Positions 1,083-34,000 of a stretch of DNA of 64,000 nucleotides are shown here, piece by piece. The stretch covers positions 2,356,001-2,420,000 of the forward strand of contig OU612073.1 in the NCBI GenBank assembly GCA_914767715.1, read 5' to 3'. Positions within the stretch are counted from its first letter, which is position 1, and each line of letters begins with the position of its first letter. Origin of the DNA: Membranipora membranacea. Taxonomy: Eukaryota; Bryozoa; Gymnolaemata; Cheilostomatida; Membraniporidae. The translations under genes and the position numbers were made by a program. Under the pieces are notes generated by a model. The model had not been told where the DNA came from, did no database searches, and saw nothing but the letters and a program-made list of their open reading frames with translations.

Positions 1083-4000
1083 TAGACACTTTAATAAAAA
1101 TCGAAGCTTATCATTAGAGAAATACAGTTAGTTAGTTGTATTTTGTGCCGGCTTCCATCCGATTTAGGACTCAGACTGCAACATTATCAAGCATTCAATT
1201 TGTTCCTTCCTGATTGATAGTGTAATGCCACAAATTTTCTAACTATTTGTCACTCACTTTGAATATTGTGTGAGAGCAGAGTCTGCTCGATGGATTCGAT
1301 TTGATCACCTCATTGATATTGCTGGATAAGAGGACTGCTATAATATTGAGTACATTAGGAGCACATCGTAGAGGTTATACAGTACAGCTCCTGTAATATA
1401 AAACACATCTAGGCATACACAAATAGCTGAGTGCTCCTTTATTAGAATATCATGACAAAGTTTGTTGGTTAAACAAGATGGGTTATGGTGACACTTTCAT
1501 TTGAAAACTCAATTCCCTCGGAGCAGCCCTTGAGAAATACAACAGATTGATTATATAGATAATGAGCTATCACATATTCAACTTTTGATCGTAACATATA
1601 TCTGAAGTGTTACGGGCAGCGCACAAGAAACTGTTGCGGCAATTTTAGGTCTGCATCATTTAAGGCAGGATAGCAAGAATTTCTTGGAACTCCAATGGAT
1701 TGCACTGCCTTTTGTCAATTTCTAGCCAGCAGATGTTTTATAGACATGCCACCAAAATAGAAAGAGCACAGTTTCATCCCATATTGTCGCAGGGGGAGCG
1801 TTAACTCAGAGGTCTGGTAAAGTAAAATTTGGAGTAATCAACTCTCTGATCAGAGAGGTGATAACTCCTAAGTATAGTTGGTACTGAGACATTTAAATCT
1901 CATCTCTGCAGTAGTATATTATAATATAGTCATGGTCAATCAAAGATACACAGACACAAGTCAGTACTGCCTGAGTTATGTAATCCAGTAAGGCTTGTGC
2001 TGCAGGTAGGATGGGGGGGGGAGATGCACCACCCACAGTCTTAGGTTCTGTCAGAATCACTTGCTGATAATTGACGTTAGGCTCTGCTTATTTCATGAAT
2101 TGCTTCAGTTTACTGTAAAGTTAAAAAAAGGCGGAAAATATTTAGATTTGGATTGTCACAGAGACTTGGATTGTTCTACTAAGGTTTTGCTCGGGTTGAC
2201 TAAAGAACTAGTGTGCCACTAAATGGCCTTTACTTTATTCTACTGCTACACACCGATATTATACTCTGCATGGCCAATATTCGGTCAAATGTCGGTGCCA
2301 TCCAAGCATATCATTTATTTAATCTACCGATAAAATAGAAAATCTGCATTGCGGATCACTATAGTAATTGTTGTATTAAATATTTCAGTCATTTTCAGCA
2401 GATTCTACATGACCTGGAGAGACATGTACTCTGAGTCTGGCCTGAGAGCTAGGACACGTATTGAGCATCATAATCTACCCGGGTACAAGATGGATTACAG
2501 GGAATGGTAACTCCAAATTGAGATAATTTAAGAAGTGAAGCGGTGAACCCGTAACTCTAGCTAGTAGTAGTAACTATGGGGAGGAAAGCCTGACTAGACT
2601 AACATTATCAGGATATATTGGAGGACAAACAGACCCAAAAATCGGTTGAGATCATATGTACTTATACATCTTGATAGCCCTGAAGATAACAAATGAGTTA
2701 TACTGATAGTCTGCCTAAGTATCTTTACATGATAATTATCATGAAGCTGATGAGAATTAGAAGATATAATCATTAATTGTAATGTTAACCTCTAACCTGA
2801 GTGTGTTATACTGTGAGAAGATGGAGTTAAGGGAAGGTACAGTCTCTGTTTCTTCATATACAGAATTAGATAGACTTGGTTGCAGTTAATCATATCTGTA
2901 TTATCTGATATCAATGGCTCCACCAGCTACACAGTCTACTGACATGGAGAGAGAGAATGTAAAATAGTAATTCTCTAGAAACATGATATTATAATGTCTC
3001 TGTTACTATCATTTTTGGTTGGTGTAAGTGAAGTGTAGTGAAATAGGCATATAATTATTAATTAAGACTGATAGTAAAAGAGAATGACAAGTCTGCATGC
3101 ATAGAGGACACTCTCGTCACAATCAAACAGTAACTAGTGGGTGATTTTTCTGAATTATGAAGGAGACACTGAATTAAAAACAGATTCATTAAATTGCCGG
3201 AGAAACATGAGTCAATGGTGACATACCAAATGACACTGGAAATGCCCTTATAGTGATCGCTTAGTATGAAGATATGGATCAATAAACGCTTTAATACAAA
3301 TTGTAGCTTATCATAAGAAGCACAATCAGTTATACTTTGGGTCAGTTTTTATCTGATTTTAGATTTGGCGCTGGCTGACAGACCTAAAACTCAGGTGAGT
3401 TATCATAGAAATATTAAAATTGGATGTCATACAGTATAATTGAAATGATGAACAAAGTAAAAAGGACCACCAGGAATAAGTCTTAGCGCTGAGACGGCTG
3501 TATAAACATAATAACTAAACATGTTATCTTGTAGTCATTCTCTGAGTAAAGTAATTCCTGAGGCTAAGGGCTTTTGATCAGAGGTGTTTTCTTGAGCTTT
3601 ATTTTAGCTGATACAATATATAACTGTTAGTCTAACTTCTCAGACGGCTTCATTATCAAGCATTCAATACGTTCCTTCCTAATTGCTTACTATTTGTTAC
3701 CCACTTTGAATATTGTGTGAGATCAGAGTGCGCTCAATGAATTTGATTTGATCACCTCACAGATCAAGTTAGATGAGGACTGCTAATGTTGATTTCATCA
3801 AGAGCACAGGATAGAGGTACTACAGTACAACTCCTGTAATATGAAACACATCTTGTCATGCATGGATAGCTGAGTGCTCTGTATTAGAATGTCATAGGCA
3901 AGTTTGCTGGATTACGTTAGCTAACCAAGCAAGATGTGTTATCTTGTGTTATAGTAACATGAAAACATAACCCCCCCCACGGGGAGCAGCCATTGAGAAA

Positions 4001-10342: not shown

Positions 10343-13300
10343 TCAGTTTGTAATCTTTACTACTTTCCAGTTTACAAACATCCGAGAGCTTTCATCACTG
10401 CCTTCAGTTCTCTCCTCCAGTGTACCTGAGTAAACAGACAAGGTGTATATATGATTGGGTGCAACACAAAAACAAAATAGTAAGTACAACTATTTTATAG
10501 CGCCCTCAGCTATCAGAGTTTACTATGACTACATAAGGTCGGTTTGATGTCAATATTCTGGATTAGGTCTATCACTTAAATTCTTATGACCTTGTCACTG
10601 AATATTGTGGGTAAATATGCACATTTATGATTCACTACAAAATCTGTTCACACCATAGGCTTCTGATGTACATCCAGTAACTGTTAACTGCAGCATGTTA
10701 TATATCCATCTTATCAAATTGTTTTGTTTTGTTCTCATTCTTTTGCTCAACATACATACCAGGAAGCCAGGAGATTGTAGATACTGAAGGATTAGGAGAT
10801 CTGACATCAGTAGTAAGATTATCTGGATGTTCTCCTTGTTTTCTCATATCTATCCCTGGTTCCAGGTAGAGTACTTTAGTACCCATATTATTAGTCATCC
10901 TCGGTGTCTGAGTTCCACGAGCCTTATTCTCTCTTGCAGTGTAAGTCCTCACTGCTTCCTGCACCTAAAAAACCAATCGATAACACGCCATTCAATAGTA
11001 AGTAGAGAGAACATAAACTGAAAACATCCATAGGAAACGAGATAATTTATTGTAATGATTATCATAATGGAACCGAGTCAAATTAACTGGACCAAATAAT
11101 GGAATCGAATATCATTTCCGGAGGCTTTTCTTCCTGTTTTTCATCAATGTTTGCATTGGATAAATCAGCAGTCTGTCACCACTTACCATATTTCCCAGAG
11201 ACTGGAGGTGATGCTGATGAGCATACTTGTAGAAGGTGATAACTAGAGCTCTTAGGAATGGAGATCCTATGTCATCTCTACCAGCGACAAAACCTGTAAA
11301 AGGTGAGTTGAATCATCAAATACTTGATTCGATAAGTTGTGAAAGTTATAGTTTCATACCTCATATATATTTGTCAGGTGTAACAAACCTGAATTTGTTT
11401 TTGACCAGTAAGATTATTTGCTGGCACTATGTAGGTTAAATGGTTGGGATTAACATTTTGTTTAGTTTAGAAAAAACCGGAATCAGTCTGCTGAATAGCA
11501 CAAATATAAGTCTTGGCTGTCGAAGATTTTGAGGTGACTGAATAATTCATTCTGTTTTCTATATAATATTATATTTCCTAGAAACAGAGAAGTCTGGGAT
11601 GGTACCTACTGTCAAAGCTAGACTGCATGATGAAGAGATCTGCTAGTGAGCTGTCCTCAGGCTGATCATCCACATAGGAAGCTCCAGATGGTTGGTTATC
11701 AGTTACAGAGTTCTCTGGTGATACCCTCACTACTGCTGGTACCTGATAAGTAGTTGTGCTGAGATCCAGCATCGTGTCTCTCTTATCTATAATCAGTCAA
11801 AACATTGTACTTAGTTATGAGCCGCTGGAGATGATAAAATCCCTATTTAACTAAGTTAGGAAGCCTTATGTGAGACGAGACAACTTCAACTTGTTGGAAC
11901 TTGGACAACTACAAAATTTGTACTACTTACCTCCGGCGCAGGCTTGTATTATAATAAGTTTAGGTTTTCCCTTCATAGCCGGGAAGTTTCTAGCAGATAA
12001 TAGCTGATAGATATCAGTCAGCCTGATGTGTTCACCATCAGACCCTTGGACACTCCCTTCAGCACCATGACCAGTTATAACCAACACAAACATTCCTAGA
12101 TCTTCATGGACTGATCGGCCTGTCTGGTCTACCAGCTGAGTTTCCCTGTGAATGGTCTTTATGATATTCTTCAAAATCATAGGAATGGAATAGAATATGA
12201 AGGGGGATCATAATGGGATAAGAGACAGCCATTTTTGGTAACATCAACACCTCAATCATAATCGGATATCCACCACATGCTCACACTGATTTACAGCCGG
12301 GAGAATAACTATTGGACATTGTACAAATATGGCCAAATCGAGCAAAATAGAGCAATCTTAACGGGCATGTATTACCTGTGAAGTGTAGCTTTTATACTCT
12401 CCATTCACAACAAACCCAAAATTCTCCAGCATATTCCTCATGTTATCATGGTCTATGTCAGCACCCTTCCTCCAGTCTATTATTTGGCCGTGATTATCTT
12501 TGACCTCATGTTTATTAGATAATATGAGAGCTCGGCCTCTAGTCTCAGTCATCGCATACATTGTCTAAAATAAAATCAAATGTGGTTAATAAACATGAGC
12601 ACAGCACTGTGGGGGTTACTGAAACCCATGGTTTGTTTGAATCACAACATCAAGGTAGACATCGGGCACAGAGAGCGATTCAATAACACACAGCAATCGT
12701 AATAACAACGCCTAAATAAGCTCAAAATAGTTAGTAGATATAGGTGCCCTTGGTCTGTTTGAACCACCACAGCATTTGGCACAGAGCTAGAATTGTGATA
12801 ACAATGCCTCAATTCAAAATAGTAAGTAAAGATAGATGTCCTAGGTTTATTTCTAACCTCAATAAAACTCACCATGTTTTTTGGAGTAGTTGACTGTGAC
12901 ACACAAACTTCCAGTTGCAGATTGATGCCTGCAAGTTGTGATGTCATCAGCTCAATAATATTACGTACAGCTACATTCGGTACTTGCAGGCTAGTCATGT
13001 AATTTCTAACTTTGCGTTTATCTGCATCCGTCAGTGAGAAACCTACAGTGAGAAACTACAAGTTATTTTGATTGACGTATGAGTTACTTTTGATATCTTG
13101 GATAGATTTGTGGCTTTCCTTCGATCATAATTTGGCATGTATTTTTCGTTCCCCTCCTCTTGCCCCCGGTTTTTGTCCACCCATCAGAGTATCACACAAT
13201 GTCAGCTGTCCAGAATTAAACTTACATGGGAATCTTAGAGGCCTCGGTACTTGGAGTTGTCCACCATTAGTTTGATCGTTACAGCAGGGCACAGGGTCAG

Positions 13301-16300
13301 CATTAGAGAGGAATGTGGTCAGCTGATGAGAGAGAGGTACATCTTTGTTAGTGTGTCTCAGAGGAGAATACCAATCTGGATCTACTTCTGTCTCAGGCCC
13401 ACACTCTTGTAGATACAGACAGTGAGCACAGTAGAACTCACAGATAGGTCGAGCTGCGACCCAGATAGACAGCAGGTGGTTGATAAGTGAGTCTGTGATG
13501 CTGATCAGCCGCTTCCATGAGGAATCTAACTCCTCCACAGGTGTATCCACCTGAACAGTGACTCTGCGATCAGCACTGCTGTGTCTTACACTGCTAACAG
13601 TGTTACCATGATGTACCATAGCTCCACTCCGAGCTGTTCTGATACGATTTCCGGAGTCAGTGAAGGGGGACAGATATACACAGGTTAGCAGGTAGTATGC
13701 ATATGAGGGAGGGGATAGGCCAAGAAACTTGATATCTACTCTAAGTTGTAGAAGTTTGTTGTCCGCAGGAATAAGGTCCAGTGAGTCAGTGGAGAAGTAA
13801 GGGATGATGAATGTATTTCTTGGTGTTTTGTGAATTGGACCACATAAGAGATGGAATGCCTTGAGTAATGGCAACGCCACCTCATATGGAAAGTTATGTT
13901 GTGAATACAAACTCGATAGAACAGCCTCATCAACAACACCACTTTGCAACAGCTGACCAACAAGTTTCTCATACTTCACTTTAGGAATCATCTCATTTCC
14001 TACAGCTATGAAGTTTGGTTGGGCTGCCAGTCTAGACTCCCATCGATCTCTCAATCTGTGATGAAACAAAAGGGCGATGGCATCAGTGACGGCAGTAAGT
14101 CTGTGGAAAACATATCCCCTCAGACTATCCTCATGTTCAAACCGTAGCACCGTCAGATTTGCGTCACCTGGGAATTTCTTTGTGACTTCAGTGAGAAGAA
14201 TGAAGGGCACATCACTGTTCTGATCAAAGAAGAGAAGCAGTAACTCCCAAAGTTTTGGGATTATTGTGAAGAACGGTTCAGCTCTGATCTGAAGGGTCTG
14301 CAATATCTGAAGAATAATCTCCTTACTGTTATCACTGCTATCTAACTCAAATATATTCTGTGGAGGAAAGATTTCTGATGATGACGAGAAGAGGGCAATA
14401 CTACAGAACTCAGATTGGCCTTTAGTAAATCTCTTCTCCTCCTCTATCATATCCCTGATTAGAGAAGTCAGAGTACCTAGCAGCTCAATCTTTCTGGTGT
14501 CAAAAACAGAAACATCAGAGAATTTGTCTTTATGGGTGAGGACAAGAAGAGGAGGGCCTAGACGAGGACATGACACATATAAATGTGACATGTAGTCCAG
14601 GACTAGTATCCTCACCGCTTCTTTTGGGCCACCTGATGACAACAACTCCTCAAACTGCTCCATATTGACAACAATGACTGGAATATAATTACTTCGTATT
14701 ACCATATGATAGGAAATATGGTAAATACGGTCACCTCCAAAATCAAATACTTTCAACTGTGACTCTCCAACTGTGATCTCAGCCATTCTGAAAACCTCAG
14801 TAGTGTCATCCTCAATCCCTTCTCTGTTACGATATGTGAGACTTCTTTCCTTTGTTTTCAAACTATTAATGAGACTAGTTTTACCTGCCATTCTGTTACC
14901 GATCACTGCTGCAGATACTATAGGGAGCTTTACACCACCGTGCTGTTCGAGATCTGTGTAGTATTTTCTTATAGCCTGCAGGCCCTGCTCACAGACTGCA
15001 TAGGGAGGAGATGTCAGAGCTCCACAGCCAAGACATTCCAGGTTCTCTAGAGCAGGTAGAAGAAGAAGACGAGAGTCTAATGATTGGAGGTTTCTGTTAG
15101 AGTTGAGGTACAATGTCTTGAGCTTCTTCAGTTGTATAATAACTGGTGGGAGGGATGTGAAGTTATTAAGTCCTATATTTATGGTCTCCAGGTTCGAGAG
15201 ATTTGACAACCTGAAATAATAATTGTATGAGCTATAAGAATTTAGATAAAATACAGACGTCTATTCTCAATATCAGTCTACAGCTCTTTTGGCACCATTG
15301 CCTGAAATAATTGTAAAGCATCAAAGGGCAGATGATAGTGTTGCTCAAGTATCACAAATATAGACATGACATAAATTTAATTCAACACTGTGTTAATTAC
15401 ATCATGCATCATTGGGTGATTATATCTGGTAGGTCGTAACTTGTCTCCCTCCGCTCAATATCTCACCCCATCCTAACAACTCCTCACCAATGAGTGAAAT
15501 TATGATTAATTTGTATTTATAATGGCTATGTGCGGCTTCAGTACGTTTGCGTACAAATCCCAAAATAATCATTCGTGGCCGACATCAATGATTCTTTTTG
15601 AAAGTTGGTGTAATCGCACATAGGCAACTTAAAGTAGACTGCCCTGTTCATATTTTATTATTTTATTATGTGTGATAGTTTGGCAACTTTTTGAATAGGC
15701 AAAAATTGACATCTTAGGTCAGATTCGCAGCCTCTTTGTGTTTTTGGGAAATTCTCACAATTCCTCAAAAGAGGTTTGTCTGAAGAGAATCATATTGTCT
15801 TTGAAAGGGTGAAAGAAAACGTCATGGCCAACATAGTCTCGCTTCTCAAGTCTTATATGGGCTCATTTAATGAGACAGCAAGATGGCGCTGATGGCTACT
15901 ACCTCCACTACTATCGACTTCCTCAACATGGAAGCTCTACACCTAATTTTATCATCCTACCAAAAGCTTCATAGGCGTACCAGGACAAAAGGTTCTTTTA
16001 CAGATGCGATTTCCACCATGTTGAAAATGATCAGATGTCAATCAGCTGTTCTCAGCTCATCTCTACATTTTAGGTATGCAGTTGACTCTGCAGGCATTTT
16101 CTATCTACTTTGCTTGTTGACAGTTGAGGGACTTCAATTGAAATTGAACCCAAAGGTTTTTTATTATGGGAACTCAACTCTTTAGGAAAAAAATCTGAAT
16201 TAAATCTCATGTAAGAGCAAGATGGCTCTGAATGTCGCCAACCAATGCTTTGAAAATATACAGCGAAGAGGCAAAAAATTGGTTTCCGAAAAAAAGACTT

Positions 16301-19300
16301 CCACATTTTCCAAAAACACGGATTTGATGACGACAATTAAAAAACTATGGTAAACACGTCAAACATCACTACTGTATCATATATATATTTTGGGTCTACA
16401 TTATTTGAAAATGCTACTTGTAGTATAGACAAATCGGAAAATAATTTTTCACTTAATGTTTGCTCCTGAAACGTACAAAATATATTTTAAGACATCGAGA
16501 ATTCGTCTTCATCGTGTGAAATCCTAAAATTTTGGAAAACAGAAATTTGCGTTACGTGTGTACTGTGTACTGAAGTGGAAAATTTTCTCGAAAAAGCGAA
16601 TTTTTTAGAGGGAAAACAATTATTAGTTGTCTTCTTCTTGTACAGGAAGAAACCAGTCTCTCAACTTACTTATATCATAATTATTCTTAATGGACAACTG
16701 TCGAATTCCTATTGGCTGAGGGATGGGAGCTTTCACCATTCCAGTCAGTTGCATGTTAATGCACTGATCTTTCTGAATTTGGGTAACTTGAAATTTGAGG
16801 ATGGCTTTAAAAGACTAACGGAAACATACATACTTATATCAGTCATTAATAAAGGATACACACATATACCTGGTACTCATATCAGTATATCGAATATCTA
16901 TATAATTAATAAATATGATGGTGGCGTTTAAAAAACCTGTTGGAAATATATATATATATATATATATAATATAGATAAAATGATATATATATATGTAAGG
17001 ATGACATCAGATGTGAATAGACAAATTCATATCATCATCATTAATATGTCATCATGTTAAGAATGTGCCAAGATTCATGACTGATTGTGCTGTCATCGAA
17101 ATTAATTGATTGAATATTCATTTGCTCGCTGTATCCTGATTACATTTTGTTACCATCATATGAACTGCTGTATTACTATTGGTTTAGATATTTTATGTCT
17201 CATATATATATATAAGTTTTACTATCAAATAAACCAGTTAATAAGTTGCAACGAAGTAGCGTAGTACTTCTAAATGATCACAAATACCCACCACAACTTG
17301 TAAGGACAGCGCACCCTTACATCTGGTGACAGAACTGGGATTTGAAAGTTAAGACAATGGATCCTGGAAATCGCAACGAATATGACGGTGGCGAGGAGGT
17401 CAACCGCAATGAAAAAGACGGTGGCGAGGAGGTCGACCGCAATGAATATGACGGTGGCGAGGAGGTCAACCGCAATGAAAAAGACGGTGGCGAGGAGGTC
17501 GACCGCAACGAAAAAGACGGTGGCGAGGAGGTCGACCGCAACAAAAAAGACGGTGGCGAGGAGGTCAACCGCAACGAAAAAGACGGTGGCGAGGAGGTCG
17601 ACCGCAATGAAAAAGACGGTGGCGAGGAGGTCGACCGCAATGAAAAAGACGGTGGCGAGGAGGTCGACCGCAATGAAAAAGACGGTGGCGAGCAGGTCGA
17701 CCGCAACCTCGAGAACGAGGAAGAGGAGCCAGTAGACGAGGCTCTGCAACAAATAAATGATGGCTTGGGAGCTATCAGGCAGGATATGCAAGCCCAGGAG
17801 GAAGCGTGGAAAGAGGACCTTGTGCAGTTTACAATGACATTTGCTGCTCAACAAAAACAGCTAATGGAACAGGTCACTGAGCAGGTGACCAAGCAAATTG
17901 AGGAGATGGGGAAACAGATGATGACAAAAATGGCGAATGAGAGATCATGGACGACAATGGGACAGATGGCTACAGCACCAGTAATAAACACAAACATGAG
18001 GACACAGACACAGCTGAATGTTGAACAAACACCAAGCCCAGGTAAGAGTTATCCATCAGCAAGCAGTAATTCAAATAATTCAGGAAAGAAAGATTGGGTA
18101 AAGTTTGATCTCAAATTTACTGCCAAATCCATTCAGCAACAATCAGGTGAAAATGTGAAAACCAGTCAACATGGTAATATTAGAGATCATAATCAATGTA
18201 GAGAGCACGCCCGTGGTAGAGGCAGAGGCAGAGGAGGTCGTGGTACACACACTATGGCCAATTCTCAGGTCCCTCAGGAGCCTCCAGATCCAGGAATTAA
18301 TCAACCATCTGAAAATACAAATAATAGGCATTATGAGGAGTTTGACAATCGCATATTTGACACATGTGCCATTGATGTGATTGATGACATTGACTATGAC
18401 AATAGGAATGTGACCACTGAATTTTCAAATGACACACCACAGTATGTGTCAAAGAAAACAATGACTGGGACAAAAATTTCCAAATATAGACTAACATCTG
18501 GACTTGTTTTTATCATCTTAGCTATTTGTATGACCCTACTAGGTTTTGTCGGTAACGTGAATGTAACAACACCAATGATATGCAAAACTGATCATCCGGT
18601 TGCTAAATTCAGACTGCCAAAACTATCAGGTTGTGATCTCAAACGTGGCCACATGGACTTGCATGCATCAATAGACCAGAATGTGACTTTGTTCAAACCG
18701 AATCTGATTCAATATAAATCCAAGGCATATCACTGTAACATACTTAGAACTGACATCACAACACATGCAGGATTTTTTGGTGAGTATAGGAATAGGACGA
18801 CTACACACACAAATGAACTCGTGACAATGGAAACTTGCAAAAACATGGTACAATTTAAAAGGGCACCTTTTGGTGACATGACTGAAGTAGGTGGAATATA
18901 CCAAACTCAAATTGCAACTGATTTTAAATATCACACAGGATTTAAGTGCTGCACTGACTATGACTTTTCATCTAAGAATGATTTTCTCTATGAATCTGTG
19001 GTAATTATCAGACATGGCAAAGATGAGGACATGCAGAGCCCGGTGGGTAGCACAGCTCACTGTGACTACCATTCATGTTTTTGTAATTTGTTTGATGAAT
19101 CAGGACTGTTATGGACACAAAATGAAAAAGAAAAATGTCTCTATTTACCGCATATATTCTATCAAGGAAAACTACTGCAGAGGACTTGGCTATCAAATGA
19201 CGGGGAATTGGCCTTGACTTTTGCAAACCCAAAGAGTATTCAGCAAAACGAGGACTGTGGCGGGTTTGTAGACATAACTGACCAGGGTGTCGCAGTTAAA

Positions 19301-22300
19301 GTTGGTGACCTAACTAACACAAGGGAGAAACGACAGATAGAGGGGACCGTTTTAGCGACTGAATTGAATTCTAGACTACAGGCAATTGGAATACATGTTT
19401 CACAGAATTTTAACAAGATGTTTCACACAACATTTAGGCTAACTTGTCAAAATATGATGAAGATGGCGAATCTTTTACTTGTATCACTTGATGAACATCC
19501 TATTCTGTCTGCGAGACATCTGTTGAATAATTCATACATTTATGCACAGAAACCACATGATTTCATAACCATCTATCCTTGTCAGCCAGTGGACCACTAT
19601 GAGATTATCTCTTCACCAGAACAATGCACGAAACGAATTCCAATGGCTGTTTCATTAGGTGTCACCAACAGGACTATGTGGTTAAACCCTCATGACAACA
19701 ATCTGCATGACACTCCAAGCCTCATTGACTTTGCATTAAATCAGGAGATTCCAATGGTAATTGGTGGAGATTTATTCTTCTATGCATACATATTTATGGG
19801 ACTGCCAGGAGGGCCAGTGGCATTGACAAGCTGAATACGATAGCGCTTGATTTTTCTGATTTGGGAAACAATATTGGTCAACCTGTCATACATAAACTAC
19901 TATTATATGATTGGCATTTATTTAGAGGAAAATTTACATTGAATGACTTGACAGGTGCCATGCAATATCAACATACATACTTGGGAATCTAATAGGCATT
20001 ACAGACAATAATAATGCAAACAAAAACCCCCTTGAGGAAATGCATGATTCCTTGAAGGTTGCATGGGCATTGGCAAGGGATAACTTGGAATGTGCGCAAA
20101 CTAACTATAAATACTACCATGATCTTAATACTAACGGACATCAATATAAGGTTGGGGATGTGGTTTACGTGAAGGTTCCCCATATGGCAGTTGGCAATAT
20201 TAAGAAATTTTCTTCTTCATATCAAAGGCCTTATCTGATTGTTATGTTAAATGGATTAAATGCTGATGTTAGGGCACTAGGCACAACTGGTTTGCCAGTG
20301 GGCACTCAGTTCACTACCCACCTGGTGCGTTTGAAGAAAGCTAAGGCACCTTTGACATCTGATTTTGCTCCTGCCAGCTATGTATCTGTAAATAGGAAAC
20401 CTGCAACTAATCCTGCTGTGGCCGTTCCAGCTTCGAACTCCGCTACACCAGCTCAGAATGATTCTACTAAGACAAGTTCACATGGCTATAATCTACGAAC
20501 TAGGAATAACTAATCCCTTCGCACATACACTTATGACAGCTTATGACAGCTTATGCAATTATTATTCTATTTATAAATGTATCTGACTTAATAATAACCG
20601 CTATAAACTAACTGCTTCATCGCTATGGCATGGGCATATACAATAACATTGGTGATGTCTGGCTGAATGATGTGTTATTCAATTGACATGTAATTGTGCC
20701 CAAAAACTATTACCCACAATTAATACTCAAAATTATCACACGAGCTTATTACAAAAAAAAATAACTTAAAATAAAAGGACAGAGAATTGGTATCTAAGGC
20801 GAAATTGGTCCCACCTGAATATTTTGAGTGCGTTTTGAGTTGTTGTGCACTCTTTTGGCTGGCCACTTGGATTGAGCAGTCTCTCTTCTGTGGATCTGGA
20901 TTCTTGACGCTCTATGGAGGAGTGGTATGGCGTATCCTGGACTGGAAAGTTGCTTGGATGGAAACATTGCACACTGTGGACATGCAAAACAGTGCTGCCT
21001 GGATTTGGAATCTTCACACTCTATGGACGAGTGGTATGGCGGGACCTGGACTGGAAAATTGCTTGGATGGAGACATCGCACACTGTGGACATGGAAAACA
21101 GTGCTGCATGGATCTGGAATCTTTCTTCTGACCTCACCAAGTTCAAAGAGATGGTCGTATATAGGATAAAGAAGCCAGGGGAGTTTGGCGCCTCCTACTA
21201 CTGGTCTGCCGAAGACTTCCATCTCTGGTGTGTGTCACAGCTCTTGATTGTCAAGATGGGCTGTACCTGTGTGCATTCAGCACCTGGATTTCCGATGGAG
21301 TGAAGGATGAATCGGCATGGGTAGTGGAATGTGAAGGACATAGTAATGGATGGTCTGAGTGATGAAACCCTCTAGTATGACTGGATTGGAGAAGAGATGG
21401 AGTGGAATAATAACCCTTAGGTTAAGTTTAAAGATATGACATATTGACATTGAAACTTGAGAGGGGAGGGATGCATTCTATTGATAGACAACCATAAAAA
21501 CAAAAAGAAATTGCATTCCTCGTGTATTTAGTGGCATGAATCACCTTCATAATTAAATGATCTATAAAATTTTAATATCTTTATATCGGATACAACCAAT
21601 GCATAACATAATATTCTTTACATTGAACATTTACATGTAGATTAGCTGATTAATATTTTTAATGAATACATTTTATTACTTTCAGAGACAGAATAGTCCT
21701 TCGGACTTTCTTGAGTAAAACCAGACTAGTGCGACTGATCCCTATGATGGTAACCGAAAGTAATCCAGTATACACAGCGGAAGCGTTAAACCCTGAGTTG
21801 AAAAGGCAGTACAATTTTAGTGAAGTATGGCACAAACAATGAAGTCTACCCAACCTAATAACCTTCATTACACAACTAAGACAAGTCATGTTCTCCTACA
21901 GTAAAAGAGGACAACTCCTGATACATCAACAGAATGCACCAGAGATGAACACTGAAGGCTGATTAAGAACCAACAACATCACATCAACTATCAGCAGCCT
22001 CATCAACAACCAACATACCAAGAAATCCCCAACAACACCAAACAACAACAAAGAACAATCTAAGCTGAGAGATAAACCTACAAGAACCAAAACTCCCCCC
22101 CCCCCTTACCTGACCACAATAGATCTTCACCAACTGCATCATCGACTACCAACTACTCAACAATTCCAGAAGCTAACGTTACCACAAGATACAACAAACT
22201 CTATCGGCTTCGCCTGAGAGGGGAGGTGTAAGGATGACATCAGATGTGAATAGACAAATTCATATCATCATCATTAATATGTCATCATGTTAAGAATGTG

Positions 22301-25300
22301 CCAAGATTCATGACTGATTGTGCTGTCATCGAAATTAATTGATTGAATATTCATTTGCTCGCTGTATCCTGATTACATTTTGTTACCATCATATGAACTG
22401 CTGTATTACTATTGGTTTAGATATTTTATGTCTCATATATATATATAAGTTTTACTATCAAATAAACCAGTTAATAAGTTGCAACGAAGTAGCGTAGTAC
22501 TTCTAAATGATCACAAATACCCACCACAACTTGTAAGGACAGCGCACCCTTACATATATATATATATATTCCTATCAGTCATAATATACAGAACACACAC
22601 ACATACCTGGTACTTATCTCAGTGAGCCCACAATTATACAGACGCAGCACAGTCAGCTCAGTCAGCTCACACAGAGCATCAGGTACAGATCTGAGTGCTG
22701 GGTTATTACTGAGGTCCAGGATCTGTAACTTAGTCAGCTGTGATATCCTGTATTATATATAATATGAGTCAGATATAATTACTTGTGCTGGAGGATTAAT
22801 ATTATACAGCAAGATATTTCTCAAACAATATATTAAATTTTCTTCATTTCGCATGAATATGATCAAAGTATATCATAATATCTCATATTAAATCTGAATA
22901 TCTATATAATTAATAAATATAAAATTATTCTCTGGCTACATGAGTGCAAAGATGAATTTACGATACTGATATCAGTCATAATATACAGAATACACACACA
23001 TACCTGGTACCTATCTCAGTGAGACCACAATTATGCAGAAGCAGCACAGTCAGCTCAGTCAGCTCACACAGACCATCAGGTACAGATCTGAGTGCTGGGT
23101 TATTACTGAGGTACAGGGTCTGTAACTTAGTCAGCTGTGATATCCTGTATTATATATAATATGAGTCAGATATAATTACTTGTGCTGGAGGATTAATATT
23201 ATACAGCAAGATATTTCTTAAACAATATATTAAATTTTCTTCATTTCGCATGAATATGATCAAAGTATATCATAATATCTCATATTAAATCTGAATATCT
23301 ATATAATTAATAAATATAGAATTATTCTCTGGCTACATGAGTGCAAAGTTGAATTTACGATACTGATATCAGTCATAATATACAGAACACACACACATAC
23401 CTGGTACTGATATCAGTGAGCACACATTGAGACAGATACAGCTTAGTCAGCTCAGTCAGCTCACACAGACCATCAGGTACAGATCTGAGTGGGTTATCAG
23501 TGAGGTCCAGGTACTGTAACTTAGTCAGCTGTGATATCCTGTATTATATATAATATGAGTCAGATATAATTACTTGTGCTGGAGGATTAATATTATACAG
23601 CAAGATATTTCTTAAACAATATATTAAATTTTCTTCATTTCGCATGAATATGATCAAAGTATATCATAATATCTCATATCAAATCTGAATATCTATATAA
23701 TTAATAAATATAGAATTATTCTCTGGCTACATGAGTGCAAAGATGAATTTACGATACTGATATCAGTCATAATATACAGAACACACACACATACCTGGTA
23801 CTGATATCAGTGAGCCCACAGTTCCTCAGATCCAGCTCAGTCAGCTCAGTCAGCTCACACAGAGCATCAGGTACAGATCTGAGTGCAGTGTTATTACTGA
23901 GGTACAGGCTCTGTAACTTAGTCAGCTGTGATATCCTGTATTATATAAAATATGAGTCAGAAACAGTATCTTGTGCTGGAGGATTTAAGTTATCATGCAT
24001 TTTTAAATGATAAATCCAATTTTCCTCATTGCACATAAACATCATCAAACTATATCATAAATCTCATATCAAATCCGAATATCTATATAATTAATAAATA
24101 TAGACTTATTCTCTGGCTACATGAGTGCAAAGATGAGATTGTACAGCACATGTTGTTTAAAATTTTATATATTAGTACATATAGAACATGGCCAAGTTCA
24201 ATACACAAGTTTAAATACTTTAATTACTAATTCCTTGATGGTATGCAGTAAAGTTTTTTGTTAAGTTCCAAGATTAAATCTAATCATATATTTTCAATTT
24301 GCCTATGTATGTTATTTGTGGTGTATACTGGCCACCAATAATAAAAATGGGCGATGCAAGAGTAGCCGGTGTCACATAGAAGGCTGCGGATAGATTGTTT
24401 CATGTAAGGTTTTCTCATTTCAATTCCCATCAAAAGAATGGAACAAAACGACATCAAATAAGACTTAATTCAAGCTTGCTGTTGGATAAGAATATTTTGC
24501 TAATGCTTTAGTAAGTGTGAGTAAGCGGGCTGTGCGACAAGGATAGAGATAATAGGAGCCTTGCCCGGGTCATATCACTGATAAATAACTCAGAAATTTA
24601 GCATAATAGTATCATGTGTACTCTACTTACCTCTGCCATTCAAATGTGCCCTGCCTGAGAGAGTCTGTATTTATACTCTCCAGTTTGAGCTTTAGGAGAT
24701 GAGGAGCTATAACTGGTAACCAGGAGGGGATACTCATCAGACGAAAGATACAGAGATGAGTGATAGAGTTATCTCCCTTCTCTAACTCTATCTCCTCTAC
24801 TGTCATCACTCTGTAGTCTGTGTACCCTAAGTGAAGTATCCCCTCTATCTCCTCCTCTCCTGAGTGTCTGTACCAGACTCTGTACTTCTCTATAATGTGA
24901 TTATAATATAGATAAACAACAACCAAACAACCTGTGAGAATAGGAATGCAACAAAATTATGAGTTGTCTGACCTTACATGCCAATGTCTATTGCTTTTAA
25001 AAACCGTCAGCAGGGAGAACTATCCTTGCTTTTAGCTGTTGCAACAGTTTCTGTTTCCTAACATTAGGATAAGGTCCCTCATTTCAGAGATTGAAATATT
25101 GTCATGAAAGCGGAACAGTTCTGAGCTATTTTCAGTTACTGAAGAGGTTCACTGCTATAACTGTAAACAGGATTAATGATGCCCTTTGCTTACAACAATG
25201 AGTAAGATAATTCCCTCTGTAAACAGGAAATACAGTCATACCATCATTATCAGTGTTATCCCCTCTCTCATCAGCAGAGTTATCCCCTCTCTCATCATCA

Positions 25301-26232
25301 AAGTTATCCCCACTCTCACCGAAATTTGATTCGGAGTTATCTACAATCTCAGCTGGTATGTTGACCTCCTCCTGGTATATCTCTTCAGTGATGTCATTTC
25401 CACTACAAGTTACACAGTCTCCCTGATCTGATAGAAATACATCTGTGTTAGCTGCTGAATTTATGCATCACAAATCATGAGTGTAATATTACAGTTTGTT
25501 TTTAGTTTGACAACGTTAATCAACTCCGCCTCCCCCGTGGGTTTCATCATAGACAATGATAGTGAAGAAATTTGACGATTGATATGAGTCTCAGCAAGTT
25601 TTGCGCTGAAAAACATGTCCTGTAAATAATGATCAACCACGCATCTCTGTATAAAGGCAAACTGCTAATGGAAATACCCATCCGGGGCCAACTGGCCATC
25701 CTTTTCACCTTGTATCGATTTCAGCATGTCACCATAACAAAGCCATCTGGTTGCAAATATTGTAGCCGGATGGCCTAGCAGCAATTTGTATTATAAACCC
25801 ATCCGCATGGCTGTTTGGCAACTGCTGGTTGCCCAATACCAACTAGAAAGGGCATTCATCAGCCTACTGATGCCGTATACCCATCCGTATCTGTCTTTAT
25901 CCCAGTAAACTATTCTGGATGGTTTCCCCCTATAAAAACCCATCTGGCAACTGCTGGTTGCCAAGTTGTCATCATGCAGCTGACAAATAGACCGGTTGGT
26001 ACTTTGGAAACCATTTGATTTCCAATATAGCTAAAGAAACTTTCACTCAGCAATTTCCAAGGCTAATTGGTGCAAAATAACCTACTGAAATGGCAAAAGA
26101 TAAATTAGATTGTCGAACAATTTCATCCTTACCGTCAGAAACTGACTGTCCATCACCTTTAGCTGAGGGAGGAGGATCATTCCCTTTTGAGGAAGGCTCA
26201 GCTTTTCTGAACCATGAAAGGCAACTTCCCAT
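10343..26232 (-). CDS. Copy A: LRR-Roc-COR-caspase fusion protein, 15 exons
   Basis: Exons in transcript order: 26232-26133, 25454-25242, 24889-24631, 23935-23795, 23538-23401, 23144-23004, 22747-22607, 15210-13226, 13042-12873, 12564-12376, 12168-11931, 11786-11610, 11293-11187, 10964-10760, 10425-10343. All junctions are GT-AG and the phases agree, giving about 1428 residues. Order: N-terminal MGSCLSWF (a myristoylation-type Gly2/Ser6 motif with a palmitoylatable Cys), acidic spacer (about 34-104), conserved exon (105-190), LRRs (191-378), Roc GTPase with P-loop near 482-490, COR, linker, caspase p20 (His near 1193, Cys near 1236 in QACAG) and p10. In known families Roc-COR is a dimerising GTPase and caspases are Asp-specific proteases. 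A membrane-attached sensor coupled to a protease is inference. The seventh intron carries an LTR retrotransposon. The first and last exons are the least certain. Confidence 0.8.
10760..12564 (-). CDS. Copy A caspase exons (p20 and p10)
   Basis: Five exons form a complete caspase-type (C14) protease. Exon 12564-12376 carries TETRGRALILSN and WRKGADIDHDNM, matching the p20 start. Exon 12168-11931 carries FVLVITGHGAEG (catalytic His) and KLIIIQACAG (catalytic Cys). Exon 11786-11610 is the inter-subunit linker, contains several Asp residues and ends SSLADLFIMQSSFDS. Exon 11293-11187 carries VAGRDDIGSPFLRALV, which corresponds to the SWR..GSWF region of p10. Exon 10964-10760 carries TPRMTNN and KVLYLEPG, which resembles the usual p10 end. 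All catalytic positions I can judge are present, so activity is plausible. The p10 Arg sits in a non-canonical AGR context. Confidence 0.85.
13226..15210 (-). CDS. Copy A Roc-COR exon (exon 8)
   Basis: This 1985-nt exon begins after acceptor TTATTTCAG, where AG from the last LRR exon plus G makes an Arg codon, and ends at donor CCAT/GTAAGT. It starts with further LRR sequence (SNLSNLETI, LPPVIIQLKKLKTL). The Roc G motifs follow: P-loop GNRMAGKTS, DDTTEV as a possible switch I, DFGGDR as the G3 motif, and THKDK as G4. The COR-like part follows (for example IIPKLWELLLLFF, LRGYVFHRLTAV, RDRWESRLAAQP). The nearest families I know are Roco proteins and MFHAS1. No kinase domain follows; the caspase exons take that place. 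Confidence 0.85.
15211..16993. other. Intron between LRR and Roc exons of copy A, 3' part
   Basis: This part of the intron is nearly identical to copy B 36801-38550. A frame at 15883-16185 (plus) is broken by a stop in copy B, so it is not conserved coding. It contains an inverted pair TATGTGCG/CGCACATA (near 15528 and 15616). I assign no function. Confidence 0.55.
16994..17321 (+). repeat. 5' LTR
   Basis: 328 bp with TG...CA-type ends. By eye it matches the 3' LTR at every base, which points to very recent insertion. It contains a TATATATATATAAG stretch near 17202-17215 that could act as a TATA element, and AATAAA at about 17227. Confidence 0.9.
17324..17341 (+). promoter_or_regulatory. Putative primer-binding site
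   Basis: TGGTGACAGAACTGGGA begins 2 bp inside the 5' LTR boundary. A TGG start is expected for a site complementary to a tRNA 3' CCA end. I cannot assign the tRNA from the sequence alone. Confidence 0.6.
17357..19834 (+). CDS. Retrotransposon Gag-like/Env-like fusion ORF
   Basis: The first ATG is at 17357 (MDPGNRNEYDGG), giving about 825 residues. Ten 11-residue acidic repeats of the type DRNEKDGGEEV come first, then a predicted coiled coil (about residues 125-190), a Ser/Asn-rich stretch and an RG-rich box (about 285-296) likely to bind nucleic acid. A hydrophobic segment follows at about 381-400, then a Cys-rich ectodomain with several N-glycosylation sequons and a basic REKR site near 656, like a furin cleavage site in an envelope protein. 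The N-terminal half is Gag-like only by position and composition: there is no CCHC knuckle. No C-terminal membrane anchor is visible. A second frame stays open just after the stop (to about 19991), which suggests a frameshifted end. Envelope assignment is inference. Confidence 0.6.
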   Translation: MDPGNRNEYDGGEEVNRNEKDGGEEVDRNEYDGGEEVNRNEKDGGEEVDRNEKDGGEEVDRNKKDGGEEVNRNEKDGGEEVDRNEKDGGEEVDRNEKDGGEEVDRNEKDGGEQVDRNLENEEEEPVDEALQQINDGLGAIRQDMQAQEEAWKEDLVQFTMTFAAQQKQLMEQVTEQVTKQIEEMGKQMMTKMANERSWTTMGQMATAPVINTNMRTQTQLNVEQTPSPGKSYPSASSNSNNSGKKDWVKFDLKFTAKSIQQQSGENVKTSQHGNIRDHNQCREHARGRGRGRGGRGTHTMANSQVPQEPPDPGINQPSENTNNRHYEEFDNRIFDTCAIDVIDDIDYDNRNVTTEFSNDTPQYVSKKTMTGTKISKYRLTSGLVFIILAICMTLLGFVGNVNVTTPMICKTDHPVAKFRLPKLSGCDLKRGHMDLHASIDQNVTLFKPNLIQYKSKAYHCNILRTDITTHAGFFGEYRNRTTTHTNELVTMETCKNMVQFKRAPFGDMTEVGGIYQTQIATDFKYHTGFKCCTDYDFSSKNDFLYESVVIIRHGKDEDMQSPVGSTAHCDYHSCFCNLFDESGLLWTQNEKEKCLYLPHIFYQGKLLQRTWLSNDGELALTFANPKSIQQNEDCGGFVDITDQGVAVKVGDLTNTREKRQIEGTVLATELNSRLQAIGIHVSQNFNKMFHTTFRLTCQNMMKMANLLLVSLDEHPILSARHLLNNSYIYAQKPHDFITIYPCQPVDHYEIISSPEQCTKRIPMAVSLGVTNRTMWLNPHDNNLHDTPSLIDFALNQEIPMVIGGDLFFYAYIFMGLPGGPVALTS
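17369..17698 (+). repeat. 33-bp coding minisatellite, 10 units
   Basis: Ten nearly identical 33-bp units (core GACGGTGGCGAGGAGGTC) encode the 11-residue acidic repeats at the start of the Gag-like ORF. Neighbouring units differ by a few substitutions (EYD/EKD, NRN/DRN). The unit lacks stops in several frames, so long shadow frames appear on both strands. Confidence 0.9.
19947..20513 (+). CDS. Integrase C-terminal remnant (GPY/F-like)
   Basis: The frame is open from 19947, with an ATG at 20040 giving 157 residues. It contains WALARDNLECAQTNYKYYHD, then YKVGDVVYVKVP, KKFSSSYQRPYLIV and THLVRLKKAKAP. This pattern is typical of the end of a Ty3/gypsy integrase, where a helix is followed by an SH3-like fold and a GPY/F motif (here RPY). 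The zinc-binding and D,D-35-E catalytic parts are missing. The tail is Pro/Ala/Asn-rich and ends GYNLRTRNN. It lies 3' of the Env-like ORF, the reverse of the usual order. It is probably not functional as an integrase. Confidence 0.7.
   Translation, partial: LDRCHAISTYILGNLIGITDNNNANKNPLEEMHDSLKVAWALARDNLECAQTNYKYYHDLNTNGHQYKVGDVVYVKVPHMAVGNIKKFSSSYQRPYLIVMLNGLNADVRALGTTGLPVGTQFTTHLVRLKKAKAPLTSDFAPASYVSVNRKPATNPAVAVPASNSATPAQNDSTKTSSHGYNLRTRNN
20889..21125 (+). repeat. Imperfect ~105-bp tandem duplication in the element's 3' non-coding part
   Basis: Two units containing CTCTATGGA..AGTGGTATGG, CTGGACTGGAAA..TTGCTTGG and CACACTGTGGACATG lie back to back, with a partial third at the 5' side. 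The surrounding 20514-22226 has no convincing coding content and may hold RNA-level signals of the non-autonomous element. A C-run is at about 22095-22105. Confidence 0.7.
22216..22226 (+). promoter_or_regulatory. Polypurine tract
   Basis: GAGAGGGGAGG lies immediately before the TG of the right LTR, the position expected for the plus-strand primer of an LTR retrotransposon. Confidence 0.8.
22227..22554 (+). repeat. 3' LTR
   Basis: 328 bp, apparently identical to the 5' LTR, ending CTTACA and followed by TATATATA of the target microsatellite. Confidence 0.9.
22607..23935 (-). repeat. Copy A LRR exon cassette array (4 units)
   Basis: Four exons (23935-23795, 23538-23401, 23144-23004, 22747-22607) of 141, 138, 141 and 141 nt each encode two LRRs of the form ISQLTKLQ.L.LS.N..LRSVPD.LCELTELT.L.L..CGLT.IST. 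Each starts after ACAG and ends with AG/GTATGTG, with the same phase. Exon plus intron forms a tandem unit of 394-397 bp whose intron sequence is almost the same in every unit. Unequal exchange could therefore add or remove LRRs without breaking the frame. Confidence 0.85.
24631..26232 (-). CDS. Copy A N-terminal exons 1-3
   Basis: Exon 1 (26232-26133) starts MGSCLSWFRKAEPSSKG: Gly2 and Ser6 fit N-myristoylation and Cys4 could be palmitoylated, so membrane attachment is likely. Exon 2 (25454-25242) is acidic, with short repeats of the DNSDDER type and an Ile/Tyr-rich start (DVFLSDQGD). Exon 3 (24889-24631) carries EKYRVWYRHSGEEE and IPSWLPVIAPHLLKLKL, which reads like a divergent LRR cap. The phases link the three exons to the LRR cassette. 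Confidence 0.7.
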
Positions 26233-31059: not shown

Positions 31060-34000
31060 TCATGTCCTGTCTATTCTCCATTTTCTGATATCCTGTGAGG
31101 TTGTAGCTCCTCCTCCTCCTCCTCCACGTGTTGTCACCACATCATCTGTGAAAAGACAAGAAAATGTATCAGTGAATTTAGAATTTTAATTCCAATTTAA
31201 CGCATTATTTATTTATGGTCCATTTTAAAATACCATGTTATTGGCGCAGCACTACTAGCCCATAAAAGTGTTACTCTTATCTGGTTCTGTATTTTTACAG
31301 AACAAGTTTCTTTCCTCTGTGAACGTAGAGGAATACGGGAAGCTGTGTATCAAGGCCTCTCGATACTCGACGTTTACAAGGATTGACCCTGTCACCACAG
31401 AGGGAACAAACTTGTTCTAGTATTTATATGAATGACTGATATATGACAGATAACATGTGTGAGTGCTGATTACTATACAGGGTCAAGGATTGATATAGGG
31501 CTGGGATAGTGGTTTAATATTTAGTTTAAATCTATTTGACTGAATGAAGATTTCTGCACTGGTGTGTAAAATAGACTACCCAAACAAACATTGATCCACT
31601 TTTATATATTTCATCTGTTGATTCAAACTAATATTCACCACAATGGGACTGTATAAATTTGGAGTTATCTATAATTCATACCGTCGAGCCAGGAGATTGT
31701 AGTCTGTGGAGGATTACGATCTCTGACATCAGTAGTAACATTAGCTGGATGCTCTCCTAGATGTCTCATATCTATCCCTGGTTCTAGGTAGAGTGGTCTG
31801 TCACACATAGTACTGGTTATCTTAGGCATCTGAGCAACATACGCCTTTTCTCTGTCCTGAGGTGATACCATCTGCCTGAGTTCATCAGTTCTCTGCACGC
31901 TGCTCTTACTGACAGCTTTCTGGACCTGGTGAGACAAAAAAAAAACTTCAAAGATGCAATACCAAATTACCGTGTTTGTAATAACATCCAGGTCATGGCA
32001 GTGGCCACAACCATCAAAGTGTTGGTTTGATTTATTCTCATCGATACTTATACTCGTTGTACCTTACTCATATTATTACTTGAATTTGGATTCATTCTTA
32101 GATGCACCGGCATATGATAGGCCACTAATGAGATTGAAATTAGCATAAATCAACGACAATGAGGGCAGGCAAATCCAATATATGATTATCTCCACATCAT
32201 CAGACAAGCTCCCTGATTAGATTATTTAACCAGTCTGATATCTCAGACTAAATAACCATTTACTGTCACCTAGAGTTGATACACGTATATATATATATGA
32301 AATAAACTTACCTTATTTACTGAAAAGCAGAAATAATATACATCTTTATGAAACAAACTCACCATGTTCCCCAGAGTAAGCAGGTGATGTTGGTGAGCAT
32401 ACTGTAGAATGTCACAACCACAGCTCTGATGAATTGAGACCCCGAATCTGTCGATCTTATTGACACAAATGCTGAAGAAGAAATGTTCAATGAGTGAACA
32501 TAACAAATAAAAACTGACTTGAATACTGGTTGAATGTGATAATATAAGTTTGGAATCAGATAAAGAAATTTTTACAAGAAAAACAAGAGAACAATTTGAT
32601 ATCAAAATGGTTTAGTTCTGGAGATATTTCATACAAACTTCAAATGTTTATGATGTGCAATCTGCAAACTCATCACTTTATATTTTGTTGAGTTTTCCCA
32701 TCTATACTGTGGAAAATAGGCTCAGTAGGTACTTACTATCAAAGCTGGCTTGCATGACAAACAGATTAGCTACAGATATATCACTGGGATCTGAGTCTAC
32801 ATGTCCATAATCTACTGTCTGTGATGTCACTTCCTGTCTGTTATCTGGCTGATCAACAGCTGTGTTGTTTACCGAGTCTGTCATCATCTCTCTGTTAACT
32901 GCAAATCAAAAAATCATCGCAAGATATGACTAAAATAATGCTGAGAGACTGTTGGTACAAAACATCTAATAGCTCGAAACTTCTGTTTATAGGATGCGAA
33001 TTGTTGATAATGTAATTTTGAGCTCAGATAGAAACGCTAACTGTTCTTTCTACATGTCATAATGTTTCTATTCTCATGGATGTACTTACCTCCCGCACAG
33101 GCCTGTATTATTAGAAGTTTTAGTTTTCCTCTCATAGCCGGGAAGTTTTTAGCAGATAATAACTGATAGATATCAGTAAGTTTGATGTGTTTGTGATCAG
33201 ATCCGATAACAGTTCCTTCAGCACCATGACTAGTTATAACCAGTACAAACATTCCTAGATCTTTGTATACCGACTGGCCTGTCTGATCTACCAGCTGAGT
33301 CTCTCTGTGAATTTCTGTCACTATATCCTTTATAGACAAACATGTCCTCACTTTATTTATAAAATAAAGTTATTGATTATTTTATAAATATAGTGAGGAA
33401 ATTGAACAGGCTTCTTCAATGATATTGTCAGGCTCTGTTAATTGGATGAAAGCTCAATCATTCTGAATTGTCGGATATTAGGTCCAATTTACATTCACAA
33501 TTCCCAAATGAGACGATATTAGAACATCAGTGTAACAGGTTGTATTTAATGCGTTACCTCTGAAGTGTAGTTTTTATACTCTCCGTTTACAACAAACCCA
33601 AAGTTCTCCAGCATTTTCTTCATATTCTCATGATCAATGTCAGCACCCTTTCTCCAGACTTGTTGACCTCGTTGATCAGTGTACTCATACTTATTAGATA
33701 GTATGAGAGCTCGACCTCTTGTCTTAGTCATCTTATATCTCATCTAAAATAGGGTAGGGCATATCATGTCTTGAGATTAGTCGGTAAACACAAATCAAAA
33801 CCGTATGTTGTTTTGAGCTAGAACTCAATATTTCAAACCTATTTCAACTTATAGGATCTTTGTTTGGTTTATTTATTCAGATTTGTCGTAAGAAAAGATA
33901 TCGTATTCAAAAGATATTCGTGGAGTCGTCTGCTTTCTCAGCGAGCAACCACAACACCTAAACATAACTCTTGTTTATACTCATATCTTCTCTGTAAAGC

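Follow-up and report, generated by a model that had tools for sequence, protein, structure and literature searches.

A candidate family of single-chain LRR-Roc-COR-caspase proteins in the bryozoan Membranipora membranacea

In a 64,000-nucleotide stretch of the genome of the bryozoan Membranipora membranacea (assembly GCA_914767715.1, contig OU612073.1, here C9:2356001-2420000 and called the window), a minus-strand gene was found whose predicted product of 1,441 amino acids combines leucine-rich repeats (LRRs), a Roc GTPase domain, a COR domain and a complete caspase. The support for Roc-COR and caspase being parts of one gene is strong but indirect, and comes largely from relatives of the window gene elsewhere in the same assembly (339 Mb, 18 contigs). 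The first-pass annotation of this DNA had presented a Roco-caspase as a single gene; that observation is confirmed and its interpretation supported in part, but the gene is no one-off, as at least 57 distinct caspase p20 exons sit behind Roc-COR exons, and the main interest lies in the family, less in the one gene. A tandem copy, an LTR element, diversification of the LRRs and an exchange of halves, all described below, are additions to that annotation. We consider it fairly probable that these genes encode single-chain sensor-proteases from a large, fast-evolving receptor family in which a proximity-activated caspase is placed behind LRR-Roc-COR. We hold with slightly more doubt than belief a wider version, in which well above 100 self-contained receptor-proteases with hypervariable LRRs, Roc-COR and caspase, their halves swapped among members, form an adaptor-free counterpart of the inflammasome that is separate from the bacterial version discussed below.

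Gene model and domains of the window copy

The model comprises 15 exons between 26232 and 10343 on the minus strand, with AG/GT at every internal border, all joined in phase and free of internal stops. It was obtained with a gene finder written for this analysis and launched from the ATG at 26232 proposed in the first-pass annotation; the stop at 10343 was reached unaided. Because the finder was seeded with this ATG, the model start is not independent of the earlier proposal, and because the codon table was trained on exons of the same gene, the finder scores are partly circular. An unmasked run gave 23 exons, some of them within a long terminal repeat (LTR) element and antisense to the frames of that element; these were rejected, and with the element masked 16 exons were obtained. 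Two manual edits were then applied to the output. The finder split the Roc-COR exon at 14734-14678, and at the matching place in a tandem paralogue in the same window (copy 2); this split was rejected in favour of a single Roc-COR exon, given that the segment is an open frame, shows no stops across nine aligned family members and contains conserved Roc residues. The finder's linker acceptor at 12928 was rejected in favour of 13042, since the longer linker stretch has matches in relatives. The model is weakest at its N-terminal borders and at those of the linker and of exon 15.

Exon 1 (26133-26232) holds the start MGSCLS, an N-myristoylation-type motif, and is followed by a probably disordered acidic linker with GDN/DER repeats (exon 2, 25242-25451; counterpart in the tandem copy at 41770-41534) and by a pre-LRR segment (exon 3, 24631-24931). 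Exons 4 to 7 (23795-23935, 23401-23538, 23004-23144 and 22607-22747) each encode a pair of LRRs in phase 2 and are backed by the gene model, by Pfam and by their position in a tandem array. The long exon 8 (13226-15210), unsplit by hand, contains the final LRRs, the Roc motifs GNRMAGKTS, DFGG and THKD, and COR, after which exon 9 (12873-13042), with its hand-set acceptor, forms the linker to the caspase. The caspase begins in exon 10 (12376-12564) with the first part of p20 (p20a; YxM...RGRALI and RKGADID) and continues in exon 11 (11931-12168) with the part that bears the catalytic HG and QACAG (p20b). Exon 12 (11610-11786) encodes a p20/p10 linker with several Asp residues (YVDD, PEDSSLAD) and the start of p10, exon 13 (11187-11293) p10 proper (GRDDIGSPFLRAL), and exon 14 (10760-10964) the end of p10 plus a tail, YLEPGIDMR..GEHP..TTDVR. 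Exon 15 (10343-10425), the last exon with the stop, comes from the gene finder alone and is the weakest part of the model. The tail after p10 is conserved, with variants, as YLEPGIDMR..GEHP..TTDVR..NP..TISWL (window 10964-10760; loci L042-L064), and is not known to have a counterpart in other caspases.

The tandem paralogue, at 31680-42577 on the same strand, has the same exon order, with Roc-COR at 36800-34786 and p20 at 33743-33558 and 33327-33090.

In a Pfam hmmscan of the 1,441-residue protein, LRR_4 (5e-31), Peptidase_C14 (E 3.1e-30, profile positions 1-233 of 233) and Roc (E 9.2e-7, 29.6 bits against a cut-off of 27) were listed. Roc was matched in all nine aligned family members, across which DxGG and THxD are invariant, and the P-loop GxxxxGKTS is present in 30/30 loci. 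Solved structures related to the LRR-Roc part include LRRK1 and LRRK2. For the protease, the closest solved structures are caspase-2, caspase-9 and CED-3. The catalytic His and Cys motifs named in the first-pass annotation (HG and QACAG) hold up: GHG and QACAG align with the catalytic motifs of caspase-2, and HG together with Q[AT]C is kept in all 30 top-scoring p20b loci. The p10 part can be aligned to caspase-9, though by itself it scores weakly (E 0.014). RxGx[DE]xD is found in 26 of 27 p20a loci and the p10 arginine aligns with FVSWRD of caspase-9; we take both arginines to be the S1 arginines of Asp-specificity. The predicted sequence thus contains what defines the caspase family, namely a complete p20 and p10, the catalytic His and Cys and the presumed Asp-specificity residues. 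No death-fold family (CARD, DED or death domain) was listed in the Pfam scan of the full model at E <=1, in line with the earlier reading that death-fold adaptors are bypassed, although HMMER filters discard most matches above E 0.1 even at this listing limit and a very divergent domain could escape.

The family across the genome

Searching the assembly with the Roc-COR exon gave 68 scored matches (67 of 267 candidates being scored) with 34-100% identity, clustered on C9, C11, C1, C10 and elsewhere. Two genes are represented in two pieces each (L029/L037; C5:24266190/24266730), so that the matches correspond to at most 66 genes. A p20b match, out of the 150 scored from 233 candidates, lies on the same strand within 8 kb downstream of 58 of the 68, and within 2.3 kb in 56; under the same 8-kb rule none of the 68 has a p20b match on the opposite strand downstream, or any upstream. 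Between them, the 58 pairs involve 57 different p20b matches. A further four p20b matches pair with COR-A matches, and 89 of the 150 are unpaired among the matches listed. The sole unpaired p20b locus for which upstream sequence was fetched, L072, has a 694-residue LRR-Roc-COR frame upstream.

The junction itself was followed in 30 Roc-COR loci (L009-L038). All 27 loci with a complete COR alignment, over 43-100% identity, have a GT at one and the same codon where the COR exon ends. Of the 30, 27 have a same-strand p20 exon no more than 1.5 kb downstream; of the other three, L024 and L035 have linker matches only and L029 is a piece of a gene counted elsewhere. Matches to the linker exon, many of them weak, were found at 22 of the 23 loci on C9 and at none of the seven on other contigs. 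In nine of the 27 p20a loci (L027, L028, L030-L034, L036 and L038), no ATG was seen by eye from the acceptor up to the Tyr of Y-x-M; in these, therefore, coding sequence must come from upstream. Further downstream, exon 12 was matched in all of the 30 top p20b loci (frequently just its last part) and the p10 exon 13 within 1.5 kb in 28 of them; as these 30 are the best-scoring of 150, they are biased to close relatives. The shared COR donor codon and the same-strand pairing in 58 of 68 matches make the Roc-COR/caspase junction a family trait. Together with the in-phase 15-exon model and the Pfam domains, they bear out the single-chain LRR-Roc-COR-caspase layout that had been read from the window alone.

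Bacterial contamination as a source of these genes was ruled out by their introns, by a caspase that is nearest to animal caspases among those solved and by Wnt exons in the same assembly. Wnt is animal-specific; its exons gave 47 matches here (best E 8.7e-57) and none in 14 control genomes.

The 33-residue exon 1 has 13 genome matches, all in the C9 cluster and two of them the window copies. With the window exon as query, the MGS[CY]LS start and the donor are kept in 13/13, and for 12 of the 13 a listed Roc-COR exon follows 4-11 kb downstream in the same orientation. A Cys falls within residues 2-8 in 12 of them, and a crude ratio of non-synonymous to synonymous differences per site (pN/pS) is 0.46. 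MGxxxS/T is the N-myristoylation consensus, which MGS[CY]LS fits, making it a putative lipid tether; the lipidation-type motif of the first reading is thus confirmed as a motif. Exon 1 of other subfamilies was not recovered in the search with the window exon 1. At G000:C9:2133555 and 2130759 some 2.6 kb separate a family exon 1 from a p20 exon, and none of the Roc-COR matches listed falls in the interval; this is perhaps a shortened member without the switch.

Selection and the proposed mechanism

The two window copies were compared by the Nei-Gojobori method with our own script. The ratio of non-synonymous to synonymous rates (w) is 0.17 (0.12-0.26) for COR, 0.43 (0.18-0.98) for Roc and 0.21 (0.13-0.36) for caspase p20, pointing to purifying selection on COR and caspase. 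For the LRR exons w is 1.72 (0.89-5.39), an excess over 1 that is not significant; the pre-LRR exon 3 reaches 6.1 (confidence interval 1.74-8.47), a value that depends on one synonymous difference next to 22 non-synonymous ones. Over all pairs of eight LRR exons, the exposed positions of LxxLxLxxN, assigned as solvent-exposed from the textbook LRR repeat, show a pN/pS of 4.36 versus 0.49 for the other columns, and columns with at least three residues make up 7/10 of the exposed versus 1/36 of the other positions (Fisher p 1.7e-5); the exposed positions were set down after the alignment had been viewed and the exon pairs are non-independent. Exons 4-7 lie within a 397-bp tandem array (22573-24136), a ready substrate for changes in repeat number.

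The proteins probably work as follows. The N-terminal lipid tether would anchor the protein at the membrane, where the concave LRR face, as the pattern of selection suggests, would bind a variable ligand. Ligand binding would alter the nucleotide or oligomer state of Roc-COR, as expected from domain identity, and this change would bring together two C-terminal caspase domains, whose motifs are intact. Initiator caspases activate by proximity. The paired caspases would become active in the same manner, might cleave themselves in the Asp-containing p20/p10 linker, and would set off cell death or a defence response. A death-fold adaptor would be unneeded because sensor and enzyme are on one chain. 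Switching of the dimer state has been discussed for Roc-COR proteins (PMC4104024).

Several observations weigh against such a sensor-protease. Of the HMM checks proposed with the first-pass annotation, Roc and Peptidase_C14 gave clear matches and COR a mixed picture: COR-A was not listed by Pfam hmmscan for the window copy and matches five of the nine aligned members (best 3.6e-9), the homology of the window copy coming through the nine-member alignment. Among the stretches shown by a PDB profile search, the best span LRR and Roc, not COR, and a two-sequence AlphaFold2 model of the window copies is of no use, with a confidence score (pLDDT) of 31. Constraint on p10b between these copies is weak (w 0.56, 0.27-1.09), and synonymous divergence (dS) is at saturation in the p20/p10 linker. 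At the N terminus the modelled ATG follows an AG and shares bases with a donor-like CAG|GTATGG. Ten of the 68 Roc-COR matches have no p20b match within 8 kb among the matches listed: C9:642229; C9:609505, which is partial; both parts of a C5 gene that contains stops; C2:816473, which has a p20a exon at 1.26 kb; C5:28216728, with a same-strand p20b at 9.7 kb, past the 8-kb rule; and four exons on C3 (19205955, 20245622, 20438033 and 27993044), which may carry a different C-terminal domain.

Damage to the window copies belongs to the same side of the balance, and it is quite possible, if not our favoured view, that the window copy is a decaying member of a functional family and no longer yields a working protein. 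An LTR-type element at 16994-22555, non-protein in the model and with its open reading frames on the plus strand, lies between exons 7 and 8 (intron 22606-15211). Its end repeats are identical at 329 of 329 positions, its insertion site is an AT repeat and the empty site is seen in the tandem copy near 38569; with so recent an insertion upstream of Roc-COR, the window copy may be failing. The copy also has a 30-nucleotide gap in COR, which removes ten residues that copy 2 has. The segment was found by motif search in 25 of the 30 loci, the other five being L009 (copy 1 itself), L014, and L028, L036 and L038, which carry it with other letters. In the tandem copy, the p10 frame is off by one base near 32403, so either window copy may be failing. 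Against decay, the LTR element is intronic, the exons are otherwise open, and the linker and caspase exons of the window copy are 96-100% identical to the sister locus L010/L043, which looks intact over the stretches compared; recent lesions, moreover, tell little of past function.

A further point against the proposed mechanism concerns the output. At L040 on C10, a paired locus, neither catalytic motif of the caspase survives (STG stands in place of HG, QSVEG in place of QACAG), and a second caspase-like stretch lies upstream (L040:1662-1934 and 3425-3697; 27% identity, E 2.8e-4). L040 is a possible built-in or trans regulator and suggests regulatory members of the family. It would suit an output of limited proteolysis or signalling, for example on a substrate that is cytokine-like, pore-forming or involved in transcription, and a regulatory role for protease-dead members; we regard this as unlikely, both catalytic motifs being kept in 30/30 top-scoring loci. 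It is somewhat less likely still that the diverse LRRs act in allorecognition or in recognising symbionts and not in pathogen defence, even though the same signature of tandem LRR exons and a diversifying surface would be expected. For the sensor-protease with a death or defence output, the dozens of related genes suggest an immune arsenal whose single molecules both sense and kill.

Probable exchange of halves and relation to known systems

As far as the COR exon extends, the alignment of the two window copies is almost unbroken, introns included, at 85-93% identity, the exceptions being the LTR element and one gap. Past the COR exon they align in just four exon stretches at 72-84%, and the introns of the caspase part are unalignable. 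Among 19 loci, the Roc-COR data reject a grouping by shared caspase type (approximately unbiased (AU) test, p 5e-94), and the p20a data reject a grouping by near-identical Roc-COR (AU p 0.003). These groups were named after the identities had been viewed, the caspase type A group being drawn from identities and not a supported clade, and the p20a alignment has 183 columns and a poorly resolved tree, with 11 of 16 inner branches open. The receptor and caspase halves thus have discordant histories, most simply read as the outcome of recombination or gene conversion bounded by the intron between COR and caspase. That Roc-COR and caspase are two adjacent genes, duplicated as a pair and translated separately, is very improbable: adjacent recombining units would have such discordant histories, dS differs (0.09 for Roc and 0.38 for COR versus 0.68 for p20) and some p20 exons start at or near an ATG, but against this stand the in-phase donor at one codon in 27/27 complete loci, the intervening linker matches at 22/23 C9 loci, the nine of 27 p20a loci without an ATG ahead of the Tyr, and a strand and order that are identical in all 58 paired matches.

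For a single gene of this layout the closest parallel is bacterial. Bacterial conflict systems include LRR-AP-GTPase(Roc)-COR-effector proteins (Kaur et al. 2021, PMC8195603), in which caspase is one of at least 24 C-terminal domains, so that the LRR-Roc-COR-caspase architecture has a bacterial precedent. The order LRR, Roc, COR, effector is the same, and rapidly evolving LRRs, paralogues within one genome and a caspase effector are shared (PMC8195603). The genes described here differ from the bacterial ones in having introns in an animal genome, tandem LRR exons, an MGS[CY]LS first exon, dozens of copies with the same effector and a caspase nearest, among solved structures, to caspase-2, caspase-9 and CED-3. 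By analogy, the protein plausibly works like the bacterial LRR-AP-GTPase-COR-caspase (PMC8195603), and the animal-type appearance of the caspase favours a fusion independent of the bacterial one. As to the earlier suggestion of an architecture without a described animal example, no animal LRR-Roc-COR-caspase was found among the matches listed in the full-text literature, a weak negative with preprints and most subscription papers outside its range; the layout as such is not new, given the bacterial proteins (PMC8195603).

Among eukaryotes, the brown algal LRR-ROCO candidate immune receptors have tandem phase-2 LRR exons and positive selection on the concave face (PMC11378527), and like them the present family combines expanded LRR-Roc-COR genes with phase-2 tandem LRR exons and a selected LRR surface. 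The algal exons are 72 bp with one LRR each, those found here 138-150 bp with two LRRs each as judged by eye; the algal group 3 has a C-terminal peptidase of another type (IPR009003), and the word 'caspase' is absent from the main text (PMC11378527). In Trichoplax, an animal expansion of ROCO proteins with CARD and death domains has been described (PMC4104024). Both animal expansions are linked to apoptosis-type domains, but the Trichoplax proteins carry adaptor domains and here the protease itself is fused; in the paper on them 'caspase' occurs once, within 'caspase recruitment domain' (PMC4104024).

The present proteins resemble animal initiator caspases such as caspase-2, caspase-9 and CED-3 in their p20/p10 by sequence, HG, QACxG and RxGxDxD, and differ from them in that no CARD, DED or death domain was listed and Roc-COR takes the place of the prodomain. 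They share an LRR and/or Roc-COR core with LRRK1, LRRK2, DAPK1 and MFHAS1, which end in a kinase, a death domain or nothing, not in a caspase. Cell-death sensing in animals is usually drawn as a separate sensor, adaptor and caspase linked by death folds; if our reading is true, a large animal family with a Roco switch fused directly to its caspase would solve the task in another way. The attached enzyme would then also give a direct readout of what Roc-COR switching does to it, an open question for LRRK2-type proteins, and invertebrate immunity would gain a diversified class of receptors that screens for classical receptor domains such as NACHT or TIR would overlook.

Two minor features of the window remain. 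Within the LTR element, the plus-strand frame 17330-19834 has a weak Pfam match, below cut-off, to a Monjiviricetes fusion glycoprotein (E 1.4e-4) and includes a 33-bp tandem repeat at 17372-17706. At 61015-61237, a perfect TACA repeat of 55.8 copies produces a long false open frame.

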